From assembly GCA_001789805.1 (NCBI GenBank), contig MGAR01000031.1, positions 1 to 37,336 of the forward strand: a stretch of 37,336 nucleotides of DNA, written 5' to 3'. A program made the position numbers and the translations under genes. Numbering within the stretch: the first letter of the stretch is position 1; every line of letters begins with the position of its first letter. Source of the stretch: Candidatus Roizmanbacteria bacterium RIFCSPLOWO2_01_FULL_41_22. Its GTDB lineage: Bacteria > Patescibacteriota > Microgenomatia > UBA1406 > GWC2-37-13. Of the stretch, positions 1 through 4,767 are shown in pieces. The notes under the pieces were generated by a model that was given only the letters and a program-made list of their open reading frames with translations, searched no databases and was not told where the DNA came from.

Positions 1-37
1 AAGTTATTATTTTATTTATTAATTTAATATATATCCT

Positions 38-1222
38 ATGGCACAAGGCGTATTTCAGAGGAATAAACCCCATGTAAACATTGGTACTATCGGACATGTC
101 GATCACGGTAAAACTACCACCACATCAGCTATCCATTACGTACTCTCCAAAAAGGGCTTGGCCAAGTTTCTTAGGTATGAAGATATAGACAAAGCGCCGG
201 AAGAAAGAGCTCGTGGAGTGACTATCAACATCCACCATTCAGAATATGAAACCGCAAAACGCCATTATGCGCATATTGACGCCCCTGGACACGCCGATTA
301 CATCAAAAACATGATTACCGGTGCTGCCCAGATGGATGGAGCGATTTTAGTAGTGTCGGCTCCGGATGGCCCAATGCCTCAGACTCGAGAACATATTCTT
401 TTAGCCCGCCAGGTTAATGTCCCGGCGATCGTAGTTTTTTTAAACAAAGTAGACATGGTTCAAGACAAAGAGATTATTGATCTGGTGGAAATGGAAGTGC
501 GCGACCTTCTAAAAAAATACAAATACCCAGGCGACGAAGTGCCAGTGATCCGCGGATCAGCGCTCAAAGCTCTGCAAGATGACCCGGCCTCTATCAAAGC
601 TATTGAGGAATTGATTCAGAAAGTCGATGAGTATGTGCCAGAACCAAAAAGACCGATCGATAAGCCTTTCTTGATGCCTGTCGAAGACGTCTTTACCATC
701 TCCGGCCGCGGAACAGTGGTTACCGGTAGAGTGGAAAGAGGCGAACTTAAGGTCAACGAGGAAGTAGAAATTGTTGGTGTCAAACCATCACGCAAAACAA
801 TTGTTACCGGAATTGAGATGTTTAGAAAAACCTTATCAGAAGCCAGAGCTGGCGACAACACCGGTCTGTTGCTTCGAGGCATCGAGAAGGATGATGTCGA
901 AAGAGGTCAGGTGTTGGCCAAACCAGGTTCGGTGACACCTCATACCGAATTTGAAGCGGAAATTTACGTTCTTACTAAAGAAGAAGGTGGTCGACATACG
1001 CCGTTTTTCAAAGGGTACAGACCACAGTTTTATATCCGGACAACCGACGTCACCGGCGAGATTGAACTACCGGCCAACGTCGAGATGGTCATGCCCGGCG
1101 ATAACGTCAAAGTGAAAGCAAAACTGATTTACCCGATTGCGCTTGAAGAAGGATTGAAGTTTGCTATTCGCGAAGGCGGTCATACCGTGGGAGCTGGCGT
1201 GGTCATCAAGATACTGAAATGA
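38..1222 (+). CDS. tuf: Elongation factor Tu
   Basis: This is EF-Tu, the GTPase that delivers aminoacyl-tRNA to the ribosomal A site. At 394 aa it is full length. Visible GTPase motifs are G1 GHVDHGKT (residues 19-26), switch I RGVTI (about 59-63), G3 DAPGH (81-85), G4 NKVD (about 136-139) and G5 SAL. Domains 2 and 3 follow, with the typical [13 protein letters not shown] and RTTDVTG stretches. The usual bacterial G3 is DCPGH; here the Cys is Ala, as in archaeal and eukaryotic EF1A. The ATG is preceded only by AT-rich sequence with no Shine-Dalgarno site. It sits directly upstream of the S10-type cluster, the usual place for tuf. The identification is secure. Confidence 0.99.
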
Positions 1223-1263
1223 AATCAGGAAGTTCTAAACCCCCGCTTTGCCGCTTAAGTAGG

Positions 1264-1285
1264 CGCTTCGTTTTTTTGAGAAGCG
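1264..1285 (+). other. Hairpin in tuf-rpsJ spacer
   Basis: CGCTTC (1264-1269) pairs perfectly with GAAGCG (1280-1285) around a loop that contains seven T. Two further CCGCTT copies just upstream (1243-1248 and 1251-1256) could pair with the same 3' arm, so three 5' arms compete for one partner. It is not a normal intrinsic terminator, because the T run is in the loop and not after the stem. Its function is unknown. Confidence 0.4.
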
Positions 1286-1291
1286 GATGAC

Positions 1292-1309
1292 CTGGCTTTG
1301 AGTAGCCAG
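1292..1309 (+). other. Hairpin 30 nt upstream of rpsJ start
   Basis: CTGGCT (1292-1297) and AGCCAG (1304-1309) form a perfect 6-bp stem with a 6-nt loop, ending 30 nt before the rpsJ ATG. It could be part of an rpsJ leader or stabilise a processed 5' end. The sequence shows only the stem. Confidence 0.35.
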
Positions 1310-1339
1310 CATATTGTTTATTTATTGCACGTTTATATT

Positions 1340-1648
1340 ATGCCGAAAGGGAGAATACGCATTCGATTAAAGTCTTACGATCATCGACTCATTGATGAAA
1401 CCTGTCAAAAAATTGTTGACACGGCAATCAAGACTGGGGCGTCGATTATTGGACCGGTTCCACTGCCAACCAAAAGGGAAGTGTATGTGGTGAATAAGTC
1501 TACTTTTACCGACAAAGACTCGCGCGAACATTTTGGACTGATTATTCATAAACGACTATTAGATATCGTAAACCCCACAAATCAGACCATCGACTCTTTG
1601 ATGCATTTGGAATTACCGGCTGGAGTGGAAGTGGAAGTGAAGATGTAG
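1340..1648 (+). CDS. rpsJ: 30S ribosomal protein uS10
   Basis: This is uS10 (102 aa), a component of the 30S head that also serves as NusE in transcription antitermination. Family features are the start MPKGRIRIRLKSYDH, the GPVPLPTK turn and the DSREHF...HKRLLDI segment. An in-frame upstream start at 1298 would add 14 hydrophobic residues foreign to the family, so the ATG at 1340 is preferred. It has no Shine-Dalgarno site. It lies 117 nt after tuf and is followed by a 175-nt regulatory-looking spacer before rplC. In most bacteria rpsJ and rplC are much closer, so the spacing itself is notable. Confidence 0.97.
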   Translation: MPKGRIRIRLKSYDHRLIDETCQKIVDTAIKTGASIIGPVPLPTKREVYVVNKSTFTDKDSREHFGLIIHKRLLDIVNPTNQTIDSLMHLELPAGVEVEVKM

Positions 1649-1677
1649 TTGAACATAAACAAAGCGTATTATATAAT
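1649..1677 (+). promoter_or_regulatory. Sigma70-type promoter between rpsJ and rplC
   Basis: TTGAAC (1649-1654) is separated by exactly 17 nt from TATAAT (1672-1677), a near-consensus housekeeping promoter starting right at the rpsJ stop codon. The expected transcription start is near 1684-1685, which coincides with a small ORF. It would drive the cluster from rplC onward separately from tuf-rpsJ. Confidence 0.7.
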
Positions 1678-1684
1678 TCTTTTG

Positions 1685-1723
1685 ATGTTCATGACAATCA
1701 TGTTGAACTCAGTATCAACATAA
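1685..1723 (+). CDS. Putative 12-codon leader peptide upstream of rplC
   Basis: The ORF ATG...TAA encodes MFMTIMLNSVST, with three Met in twelve residues. Its ATG falls at the predicted +1 of the promoter at 1649-1677, so it could be translated as a leaderless message. The stop codon lies 7 nt before the 5' arm of a predicted antiterminator (1731-1738), close enough for a terminating ribosome to cover that arm. The ORF also contains two mutually exclusive small hairpins (1690-1702 and 1700-1721). An ORF this short can occur by chance; its placement is the argument for it. Confidence 0.35.
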   Translation: MFMTIMLNSVST

Positions 1724-1730
1724 GGCTATA

Positions 1731-1764
1731 CAGATTGGCAACAGGCAGAAGAAGCCCCGATCTG
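1731..1764 (+). promoter_or_regulatory. Putative antiterminator stem in rplC leader
   Basis: CAGATTGG (1731-1738) can pair with CCGATCTG (1757-1764) over 8 bp, including one G-U pair. The 3' arm takes part of the terminator's 5' arm, all of its loop and the first base of its 3' arm. The two structures therefore exclude each other, as expected of an attenuator. Confidence 0.5.
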
Positions 1765-1778
1765 GGGCTCTTTTTTTT
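1753..1778 (+). terminator. Intrinsic terminator (attenuator) upstream of rplC
   Basis: AGCCCC (1753-1758) pairs perfectly with GGGGCT (1764-1769) around the 5-nt loop GATCT, followed by C and eight T (1771-1778). This is a textbook rho-independent terminator, 45 nt before the rplC ATG. It sits downstream of a strong promoter and inside an otherwise continuous ribosomal cluster, so it is best read as a conditional attenuator. Confidence 0.8.
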
Positions 1779-1823
1779 CGTAAATTTATTGCAGGAATTT
1801 GGTAAGTATTCATTTTTATTATC

Positions 1824-2510
1824 ATGACAGCCGTTGTTTTAGGAGAAAAAATAAGTCAGTCGCAGATGTTTGATGAGCAAGGCCAAAGAGTGCCGGTGAC
1901 GTCTATTAGGACGTCACCTTGCTTTTTAGTTGACTTGAGGTGGTCCCGCTCAAACAATCGGGATTACTGTACTTTTAAGCTTGGTTTTGGTCAAAGCAAA
2001 AGAATTGCCAAAACCGTTCAAGGGCAGTTAAAAAAAGCGGGGATAGAAACCCCGCTTCGTTTTTTAAAGGAGGTTCGCGTCAACTCTGTAGTCACAAGCT
2101 GCAGCCCGGTTGAAGAGGAAGGAAAAAAGGGAGTATTAATTGGAGAAACTAAAGTGTTTATCGGTGGAGAGTTAAAGCCATCAGTCCTTTTTAAAGTTGG
2201 GGAAAAAGTGCGGGTGACAGGTGTATCCAAAGGAAAAGGCTTCCAAGGAGTGGTAAAAAGACATCATTTTGCCGGCGGCCCCAGGACCCACGGACAGTCC
2301 GATCGTGAGCGCGCTCCAGGTTCCATGGGCCAGACCACCACCCCGGGTCGCACCTATAAAGGTAAGAGAATGGCCGGTCGCATGGGTAATGAGCGGGTCA
2401 CGGTACGGGGACTGCGGATCATGAAGGCGGAAGATCAAAGTTTGGCCGTGAAGGGACTGATTCCCGGACACATCCACACTTTGGTGGAAGTAGTTTCTGA
2501 TAAAAGATAA
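1824..2510 (+). CDS. rplC: 50S ribosomal protein uL3
   Basis: uL3 (228 aa) is a 50S protein whose central loop reaches the peptidyl-transferase region. Family signatures are GVSKGKGFQGVVKRHHF, the HG...APGSMGQ loop, KGKRMAGRMGNERVTV and the C-terminal VKGLIPG. The Gln that PrmB methylates in E. coli (Q150, in GQNQTPG) is Thr here (GQTTTPG), so that modification cannot occur. It is the first gene after the attenuator leader. The ATG follows TTTATTATC with no Shine-Dalgarno site. Confidence 0.98.
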   Translation: MTAVVLGEKISQSQMFDEQGQRVPVTSIRTSPCFLVDLRWSRSNNRDYCTFKLGFGQSKRIAKTVQGQLKKAGIETPLRFLKEVRVNSVVTSCSPVEEEGKKGVLIGETKVFIGGELKPSVLFKVGEKVRVTGVSKGKGFQGVVKRHHFAGGPRTHGQSDRERAPGSMGQTTTPGRTYKGKRMAGRMGNERVTVRGLRIMKAEDQSLAVKGLIPGHIHTLVEVVSDKR

Positions 2511-2524
2511 TTTTAAATATATAT

Positions 2525-3241
2525 ATGCCAGACACCAAAATCAATTCTAAGACAGTTAAAGTTAAGCCACAGCCCAAAGCCAAGACAGAAAAACCCTTAG
2601 AAGTATCAGTCTACGATCTTAAGGGAAAAACAGTAGGTTTGGCGGCTTTACCCAAAGCGATTTTTGGCGTTAAAGTAAATATTCCGCTTATTAAGCAGTA
2701 TGTGAGGGTTTATTTACAGAATCAAAGGCAGGGTAACGCATCGACCAAAACCAGAGGTGAAGTAACAGGTTCAACCAGAAAAATTTATCGTCAGAAAGGG
2801 ACGGGTAATGCCCGGCACGGCTCAATCAAAGCCCCGATTTTTGTCGGAGGCGGTATCACTTTCGGGCCAAAACCGCGGGATTATTCCTTAAAAATGAATA
2901 AAAAACAAAAGACGCTGGCTTTATTTAGCAGTCTGACCGTAAAGGCCAACGATAAGGAAATATTTGCTTTGCAAGACGAGGTAGGGAAAATGAAGCCAAA
3001 AACCAAAGAAGTGGCTTTGTTTCTGAAAACAATAAAAAAGGAGAAAGGGAAGTTTTTATTAGTTATGCCGAAAATGGAAAAAAACGGCTATGTTTTATCA
3101 GCACGCAACCTGCCAAATGTTGAGATGACCCAGGCCGCTAGTCTCAATCCGTATATATTAATGAGATCAAACGCGGTGATATTTTTAGAAGAGGCTTTGA
3201 CTGTATTAGAGAAACACTTTTTAAAACAAAATGCAAATTAA
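2525..3241 (+). CDS. rplD: 50S ribosomal protein uL4
   Basis: uL4 (238 aa) lines the peptide exit tunnel; in E. coli it also represses its own S10 operon. The tunnel-loop signature is present (STKTRGEVTGSTRKIYRQKG, then GNARHGS and FGPKPRDY). A Lys/Pro-rich extension of about 25 residues precedes the conserved core that starts near VSVYDLKGK. The last codons overlap rplW by 11 nt, which suggests translational coupling. Whether uL4 acts on the leader upstream of rplC cannot be judged from sequence. Confidence 0.98.
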   Translation: MPDTKINSKTVKVKPQPKAKTEKPLEVSVYDLKGKTVGLAALPKAIFGVKVNIPLIKQYVRVYLQNQRQGNASTKTRGEVTGSTRKIYRQKGTGNARHGSIKAPIFVGGGITFGPKPRDYSLKMNKKQKTLALFSSLTVKANDKEIFALQDEVGKMKPKTKEVALFLKTIKKEKGKFLLVMPKMEKNGYVLSARNLPNVEMTQAASLNPYILMRSNAVIFLEEALTVLEKHFLKQNAN

Positions 3242-3518
3242 TACGATTTTGATATCACCGGTCCTGACAGAAAAAGCTACTCAGATGGCCCAAAATAACG
3301 TCTATGCCTTTACGGTTGCAGCAAGAGCTAATAAAAATCAGATTGCTGCGGCTGTAGAGCTTTTATATAAAGTTAAAGTGGCGGAAGTCAAAATAACAAT
3401 CCGTAAAGGGAAGATTAAAAAAGCCGGTAAACGGATGTATCCGGTGCCACAAGCTAATAGGAAAATTGCCTATATTTCAGTTAAGGAAGGGACGATTAAC
3501 CTTTTTCCGAAAGCATAA
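3231..3518 (+). CDS. rplW: 50S ribosomal protein uL23
   Basis: uL23 (95 aa) sits at the tunnel exit and is the docking site for trigger factor and SRP. Family signatures are the N-terminal ISPVLTEKATQMAQNNVYAF stretch and the VAEVKITIRKGKIKKAGKR region. The start lies inside the rplD 3' end (11-nt overlap), preceded only by A-rich sequence, so translation probably depends on uL4 translation. Length and order (rplD-rplW-rplB) are normal. Confidence 0.97.
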   Translation: MQINTILISPVLTEKATQMAQNNVYAFTVAARANKNQIAAAVELLYKVKVAEVKITIRKGKIKKAGKRMYPVPQANRKIAYISVKEGTINLFPKA

Positions 3519-3543
3519 AGTGTAAAATTCAATTTTCAAATTT

Positions 3544-4317
3544 ATGGTAAAAATTGTTCTACCAAAAACTCAAAATCCGGAAAAAAAATTGACCAGCATC
3601 CTGAAAAAGCATTCGGGACGCGATTCAACAGGTTCAGTCTCGGTCAGACACCAGGGAGGAAGACAAAAGAGGTATTACCGGCATGTTGATTTCAAAAGAG
3701 ATAAACGGGATATGATAGCAAAAATCGAAACAATCGAGTACGATCCCAACCGAAACGCTCATATTGCCCTGGCGGCCTATAAAGACGGAGAGAAGAGATA
3801 TATCCTCCACCCTGCTGATCTTAAAATTGGTGATTCTATTATCGCTTCAGAAAAAGCCGATGTAAAAATAGGCAACTCCTTACCTTTGAAAAATATCCCA
3901 GTTGGGATTGAAGTGCACAACATCGAGATATATCCGGGAAAAGGAGGAGCAATGGTTCGTGGCGCCGGCACCTTTGCCTCGGTTGTCGCCAAAGAGGGAG
4001 CCTATGTCAATATCAAGTTATCGTCAGGTGAGTTGAGAAAATTTCAGGACAACTGTTGGGCTACAGTCGGGAGAGTAGGCAATATCGAACACAAATATGA
4101 AAAAATCGGCAAAGCCGGCAGAAATATACTGATGGGCATACGGCCAACAGTTCGAGGAACTGCCCAAAATCCGCGTTCGCATCCACATGGCGGCGGCGAA
4201 GGTCGATCCGGTGAGGGAATGCATCCCAAAACCCCTTGGGGAAAGCCGGCCCGTGGAAAAAAAACCAGAACCAAGAATAAATGGAGTAATAAATTTATCA
4301 TTAAGCGTCGCAAATAA
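3544..4317 (+). CDS. rplB: 50S ribosomal protein uL2
   Basis: uL2 (257 aa, slightly shorter than the usual 270-280) is needed for subunit association and peptidyl-transferase assembly. The catalytic-region signature [14 protein letters not shown], with the conserved His (E. coli H229), is intact, and the basic C-terminus [20 protein letters not shown] is typical. The shortening is mainly in the N-terminal part. The next gene, 3 nt away, is rplV; the usual intervening rpsS is absent here and lies at 7889. Confidence 0.98.
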
Positions 4318-4320
4318 ACT

Positions 4321-4767
4321 ATGGAATCGCTGACATATTTTAAAAATTTGAAAATTACCCCGAAAAAGATGCGTTTTTTGCTGCCTGAGATTAAAAAATA
4401 CAAGCCAGCGCAGGCATTAGAGTACCTGATGTACTCGCCTTACAGGTCGGGAAAAATATTTTATCAAGTTCTACATTCGGCCATTGCCAATGCAAAAAGT
4501 AGTTTAAAGGTCAGTGAGGATATGTTAAAATTCAAACTTTTGACAGTTGAAGCAGGTCAGGCTTTAAAAAGATATTTACCTAATGCTCGCGGCAGCGTCC
4601 GGCCTTTTAAGCGTCGTTATTGTCATGTTAAAATGATTTTAACAGCGGCAAAACCAGTACAAACGCCAGTTAAGAAAGAAATGAAAGAGGAAATAAAAGC
4701 AAAGTCGGAAGTAAAAAGTCAAAAAAAGGCTTTAAAAGCAGGTAAAAATGATAAGAAGACAACCTAA
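4321..4767 (+). CDS. rplV: 50S ribosomal protein uL22
   Basis: uL22 (148 aa) contributes the long beta-hairpin that narrows the exit tunnel. The core is recognisable from LKITPKKMRFLLPEIK through the hairpin region NARGSVRPFKRRYCHVKM. After about residue 108 there is a Lys/Glu/Ala-rich tail of about 40 residues, a low-complexity extension common in this cluster (also on uS5, bL17 and uS13). The start is 3 nt after rplB, where rpsS would normally intervene. Confidence 0.96.
   Translation: MESLTYFKNLKITPKKMRFLLPEIKKYKPAQALEYLMYSPYRSGKIFYQVLHSAIANAKSSLKVSEDMLKFKLLTVEAGQALKRYLPNARGSVRPFKRRYCHVKMILTAAKPVQTPVKKEMKEEIKAKSEVKSQKKALKAGKNDKKTT

Follow-up and report, generated by a model that had tools for sequence, protein, structure and literature searches.

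A conserved leader before rplC, probably a translation-dependent attenuator of the main ribosomal-protein operon in ultra-small bacteria

Known attenuators and the position of the rplC leader

Attenuation by leader ORFs is already known. In the trp, his and pheA leaders a short ORF with a hairpin inside it is translated in front of an antiterminator and an intrinsic terminator that share bases, and the terminator is favoured when a ribosome is at the stop codon. Leader ORFs of resistance genes that sense inhibitors have no amino-acid specificity and respond to the efficiency of translation; they depend on drug-stalled ribosomes. The uORF attenuator of a DUF1127 gene in S. meliloti has been proposed to monitor ribosome availability, and Rho-dependent termination was suggested for it (PMC12218461). 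Translation of its short uORF, which lies 30 nt from the start site and has a ribosome-binding site, lowers transcription of a non-ribosomal target, and there is no intrinsic terminator (PMC12218461). Ribosomal-protein operons have attenuators as well. The E. coli S10 leader, which responds to uL4, attenuates the uL3/uL4/uL23/uL2 cluster at an intrinsic terminator in the leader (PMC10931766), and in the B. subtilis rplJL leader the L10(L12)4 complex is bound and an antiterminator competes with an intrinsic terminator (PMC4538822).

Here, we describe a leader that stands directly before rplC (uL3) in the genome of a Roizmanbacteria member; the window, i.e. the whole stretch of DNA that was analysed, comprises 37,336 nucleotides. 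With the trp, his and pheA attenuators the element shares a short and putatively translated ORF, a hairpin inside it and a base-sharing antiterminator and terminator. Unlike them it has a predicted leaderless ORF, no regulatory codons and ribosomal-protein targets, and its antiterminator arm lies 3' of the stop codon and is unsequestered without translation, so that absence of translation would mean ON. Like the inhibitor-sensing leaders of resistance genes it has a leader ORF devoid of amino-acid specificity that would sense translation efficiency, and its ribosomal-protein targets set it apart from them. With the S. meliloti uORF it would share a decrease of downstream transcription upon translation and a response to ribosome availability; it differs in having an intrinsic terminator. 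The E. coli type of S10 leader is found before rpsJ in an rpsJ-headed operon, whereas this leader stands before rplC, has another layout and has translation as its likely input; the first-pass annotation had been right in calling its placement different. Compared with the rplJL leader (PMC4538822), the conserved sensor here is a mini-ORF instead of a binding site for a protein complex. A broad survey of attenuators does not mention rplC (PMC2965389), no description of this rplC leader element was found in open-access literature, and the Rfam 15 curated covariance models gave only sub-threshold chance matches in positions 1-4000, none at or near a gathering score. As far as this literature goes, the proposal that the attenuator is undescribed holds, and we judge the rplC leader to be a new form of leader-ORF attenuation.

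The source genome comprises 1.0 Mb over 37 contigs. Profile matches identify tuf (38-1222) and rpsJ (1340-1648), and rplC (1824-2510, forward strand) matches TIGR03625 with an E value of 1.3e-53. The profile-confirmed order after rpsJ is rplC, rplD, rplW, rplB, rplV, rpsC and rplP, later secY and rpoA, and the switch does lie upstream of most of the ribosomal genes, as had been noticed at first reading. On the forward strand the promoter of the rplC operon (1649-1677) consists of TTGAAC (1649-1654), a spacer of 17 nt and TATAAT (1672-1677); these near-consensus boxes were correctly located before, and both are kept in relatives. In family f1 rpsJ follows tuf directly and the promoter starts immediately 3' of the rpsJ stop codon. 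In family f2 the vicinity of rplC often yields no rpsJ, and yet promoter, leader and terminator still stand directly before rplC (L023, L025, L032, L036, L039, L041). This means that the element is the leader of an rplC-first operon; a position inside an rpsJ-led S10 operon, as given originally, is not supported. As read from the DNA, the rplC transcription unit has its own promoter just before rplC, and rpsJ is grouped upstream with tuf.

Three further observations concern this region. The usual place of rpsS is between rplB and rplV; at 3544-4767 rplV follows rplB directly and rpsS is missing between them. A motif resembling GCAC(C/T)TTTA(A/T)AT occurs just before the rpsJ start, at 1325-1339 in the source sequence and likewise ahead of rpsJ in L003-L046; it is kept across the family and stands where a Shine-Dalgarno sequence would be. 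The spacer between tuf and rpsJ (1228-1310) contains a GCTTCGTTTTTTT tract along with several small hairpins, the conservation of which in relatives is not obvious.

The mini-ORF and the antiterminator/terminator switch

The part missed in the earlier description is a mini-ORF of 12 codons at 1685-1723 on the forward strand (ATG TTC ATG ACA ATC ATG TTG AAC TCA GTA TCA ACA TAA; MFMTIMLNSVST*), which is supported by a test of position and frame. Its ATG lies 7 nt 3' of the -10 box and its stop codon 7 nt before the antiterminator arm. Transcription normally starts about 7 nt 3' of the -10 box. The mRNA is therefore predicted to be leaderless, with +1 on the AUG at 1685 or not more than a few bases from it. 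Leaderless starts are plausible in this host, since its genome has six strong promoters with an ATG at the same spacing and the reversed control has none. Among 51 non-identical leaders of the order the ATG is found 7-10 nt after the -10 box in 47, as compared with a mean of 3.3 and a maximum of 9 in dinucleotide shuffles. Of 48 leaders, 46 have their first in-frame stop 0-18 nt ahead of the arm core, against 6 and 12 for the other two frames and 8.8 for body shuffles. Statistics against shuffles overstate independence here and below, as the relatives share ancestry. The leaders thus contain a short ORF between promoter and terminator whose start, frame and stop position are conserved.

The length of the leader ORF varies from 9 to 25 codons, and the extra sequence of the long ones stays in frame (L011, L026, L027, L040). 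In L142 (genus g20) the leader reads another frame and the stop position is unchanged, which argues for selection on the position where the ribosome stops and not on the peptide. The peptides differ among leaders, none of the amino acids is predominant (Leu 13.5%, Phe 10.8%, Ile 10.5%) and there are no codon runs. Within the mini-ORF the centroid structure has a hairpin at 1700-1721 on the forward strand (AUGUUGA 1700-1706 with UCAACAU 1715-1721), a possible pause hairpin. Hairpins in this region are enriched across 46 leaders (mean z -1.1) and the source sequence alone has a z of 0.0. The mini-ORF is probably translated, and its translation would alter termination.

Downstream of the ORF, likewise on the forward strand, follows the 5' arm of the antiterminator (1731-1738; CAGATTGG, in many relatives CCGGATTGG). 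Its 3' partner CCGATCTG at 1757-1764 is common to the intrinsic terminator (1753-1778), which is built of the stem-loop AGCCCCGATCTGGGGCT at 1753-1769 and of eight U residues at 1771-1778. The arm and its partner form 8 bp including one G-U pair, and both helices use 1757-1764, so that antiterminator and terminator are mutually exclusive. These coordinates had been given exactly in the first-pass annotation, and the same arrangement recurs before rplC in relatives. The arm has the consensus CCGGAUUGG and pairs with CCAAUCUGG, i.e. with the last Cs of the left stem of the terminator, the loop, and the Gs with which the right stem begins.

Taken alone, the folding energy of the source leader is unremarkable (z -1.7), and the evidence for the switch is therefore comparative. 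In 27 composite sequences the arm helix is formed in 93.4% of cells and in at most 53% when it is slid. Stem covariation had been named as one of the tests, and its outcome is divided. The terminator stem covaries, with double changes in 4 cells and 98.5% paired, while covariation of the antiterminator helix within the order equals that of shuffles (27 composite sequences) because there is almost no variation in this helix. Support for the antiterminator comes instead from the slid helix as control and from the pairings rebuilt in sister families. At equilibrium the terminator is favoured in most leaders. Antitermination at equilibrium was therefore rejected and the switch must work kinetically. 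When 46 leaders are modelled up to the point at which the terminator still lacks its right stem, the arm has an average of 7.3 pairs in free RNA and 4.5 if a ribosome at the stop covers 10 further nt; masking by the ribosome would thus be partial. Without translation most leaders leave the arm free of pairing with upstream sequence (L008 and L026 are exceptions).

Conservation in the order and across the class

Promoter, arm and terminator are present before rplC in most relatives. Of 83 genomes of the order, 38 carry one exact match each to the core GATTGG-N4..30-CCCAATCTGGG; the reversed control has none. In the 30 loci that were measured this core sits 11-115 nt upstream of the rplC start. 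The source genome has one copy of the core, and a search of it for further cores or a like layout revealed no other convincing copy. The original proposal required the spacer to be conserved, and the leader is kept in 36 of the 42 order genomes that have rplC and readable upstream sequence and is absent in six (hand-classified). Order members lacking it include L031, L034, L035, L045 and L046, and only a degenerate leader is seen in L013, L029, L147 and L150. The public contig JAJYLO010000009.1 (L052) also carries the element. Sequence comparison thus confirms the terminator/antiterminator switch as real and conserved upstream of rplC, and it likewise establishes the promoter, the mini-ORF with its stop position, the arm and the terminator inside rplC described below.

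The regions upstream of rplC were also compared in some 30 additional families of the class. In many of them rplC is preceded by a promoter, by a mini-ORF that starts a few nt 3' of the -10 box and by a terminator, with different sequences. In f9 the pairing is CUCGG-AUGAG with CUCAACCGAG, in f31 CGAAGUC with GACUUCG in one species and CGAGUC with GGCUCG in another, and in f25 CGGAU..GGG; in f18 the last codons and the stop of the mini-ORF itself are used. Overall, the pairing of the stretch at and beyond the stop with the terminator goes beyond that of shuffles (30 class leaders, summed z -9.1), and the predicted antiterminator is weak in f7, f28, f35 and f41, families with the mini-ORF start ATGGAGGTG. 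As the paired sequences change between families and the layout is kept, a translating ribosome is suggested as the input. Upstream regions of rplC compared outside the class have other layouts, which restricts our claim to the class and does not extend it to the phylum.

Some members deserve separate mention. In f7, f16, f19, f26, f28, f35 and f41 (L184, L215, L211, L222, L223, L209, L220) the mini-ORF starts with ATGGAGGT or GTGGAGGT and contains an internal GGAGG that resembles a Shine-Dalgarno sequence; in several families of this type the terminator loop CCTCC could pair with it. In L058 (Patescibacteria UBA2135) TATACT stands just before rplC and is followed 7 nt later by the short ORF MYPAVSGIAMS*, a possible further case.

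Proposed mechanism and rival explanations

We consider it likely that the element is a translation-dependent transcription attenuator of the rplC-first operon with the leader mini-ORF as sensor. Transcription would begin at the ATG of the mini-ORF or a few bases away from it, and the ribosome would load directly on the 5' end. If the mini-ORF is translated to its stop, the ribosome would cover part of the arm 1-15 nt downstream; with the arm masked the antiterminator would come too late and the terminator would stop transcription. If a ribosome is not loaded or stalls early, the arm would be free to pair with the left stem and the loop of the terminator before the right stem is made, and with the antiterminator formed RNA polymerase would read into the ribosomal-protein genes. 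Read-through without translation and termination upon efficient translation are expected because the arm is unheld upstream in most leaders. The likeliest signal is general translation capacity (free ribosomes, initiation) and not one amino acid or ribosomal protein. As such a switch precedes ribosomal-protein genes, it would act as feedback on ribosome supply, with a surplus of ribosomes leading to termination and thus to negative feedback on ribosome synthesis. The earlier idea that synthesis of ribosomal proteins is matched to supply survives in this form, with the difference that the supply sensed would be that of ribosomes and not a ribosomal-protein ligand.

The first-pass annotation had leaned to a ligand such as uL4, and it has to be considered whether uL4, uL3 or another ribosomal protein encoded in the operon tips the leader towards termination by binding to it, the mini-ORF being incidental. 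Such logic is known from the S10 leader (PMC10931766), and within the order the arm and the terminator loop hardly vary, as might be expected of a binding site. In sister families, however, the supposed site is swapped for unrelated sequences with unchanged layout, while start, frame and stop position of the ORF are kept far beyond chance; what is conserved is a mini-ORF with a fixed stop, and we regard a protein ligand as unlikely. An attenuator of the trp or his type that is specific for an amino acid or codon would have matching parts, namely leader ORF, internal hairpin, antiterminator and terminator. The composition of the peptides given above reveals neither runs nor a surplus of codons for any single amino acid, however, and the arm is not sequestered upstream apart from the two exceptional leaders, which makes this explanation highly doubtful.

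The same hardware with the same sign could also sense stalled ribosomes (inhibitors, stress) instead of supply, the operon being on when elongation in the mini-ORF slows. Resistance genes provide examples of this, as does, with Rho involved, the S. meliloti DUF1127 gene (PMC12218461), but here the targets are ribosomal proteins and the leaders have no conserved stalling peptide, so we hold sensing of stalls to be rather improbable. Least of all do we expect a plain intergenic terminator of the tuf-rpsJ transcript with a coincidental promoter and no regulation. In f1 the terminator indeed comes right after rpsJ; in relatives, including f2 members without rpsJ beside rplC, the promoter nevertheless lies upstream of it, and the conservation of mini-ORF and arm would be left unexplained.

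A ribosome that reads a mini-ORF at the 5' end is the likely sensor by which ultra-small bacteria with few regulators could match ribosome synthesis to need. The layout precedes the largest ribosomal-protein cluster and is kept across many families of the class while its sequence is rebuilt. The proposed circuit is concrete and directly testable through the position of start and stop codons and through read-through at 1778.

The terminator inside rplC

An intrinsic terminator is embedded in codons 71-81 of rplC (2035-2065, forward strand; AAGCGGGG AUAGAAA CCCCGCUU CG UUUUUU). Codons 72-81 have a codon bias of 0.82 against a gene median of 0.07 (windows of 10 codons, 64 order sequences). The terminator was found in 28 of 36 leader-bearing genomes and in none of the 6 genomes that lack the leader (Fisher p 0.0006, uncorrected for ancestry and with a leader table set by hand). 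It is probably covered when rplC is translated close behind the polymerase and fires when rplC is poorly translated. In this order it would then act as a further stage behind the leader. More tentatively, and with somewhat less than an even chance, both elements may gauge translation capacity in two stages for the main ribosomal-protein operon of this ultra-small class and would do so without a dedicated regulator protein: a predicted leaderless mini-ORF as off-switch at ribosome surplus and, in this order, the rplC-internal terminator as off-switch when rplC is untranslated.

A substitute for Rho-dependent polarity was considered and rejected as the sole reason for this terminator, since the source genome encodes a Rho homologue (E 3.4e-153). 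Elsewhere in rplC, at 1895-1918, there is a hairpin of 10 bp followed by TTGCTTTTTA, with no marked codon constraint among relatives at this site.

The terminator at codons 71-81 is unusual in being a conserved intrinsic terminator within a coding sequence whose synonymous sites are constrained. Pairing in its stem is kept at 92%, and five of the eight pairs show double changes; in L005 and L133 the stem is preserved by changing an otherwise conserved amino acid.
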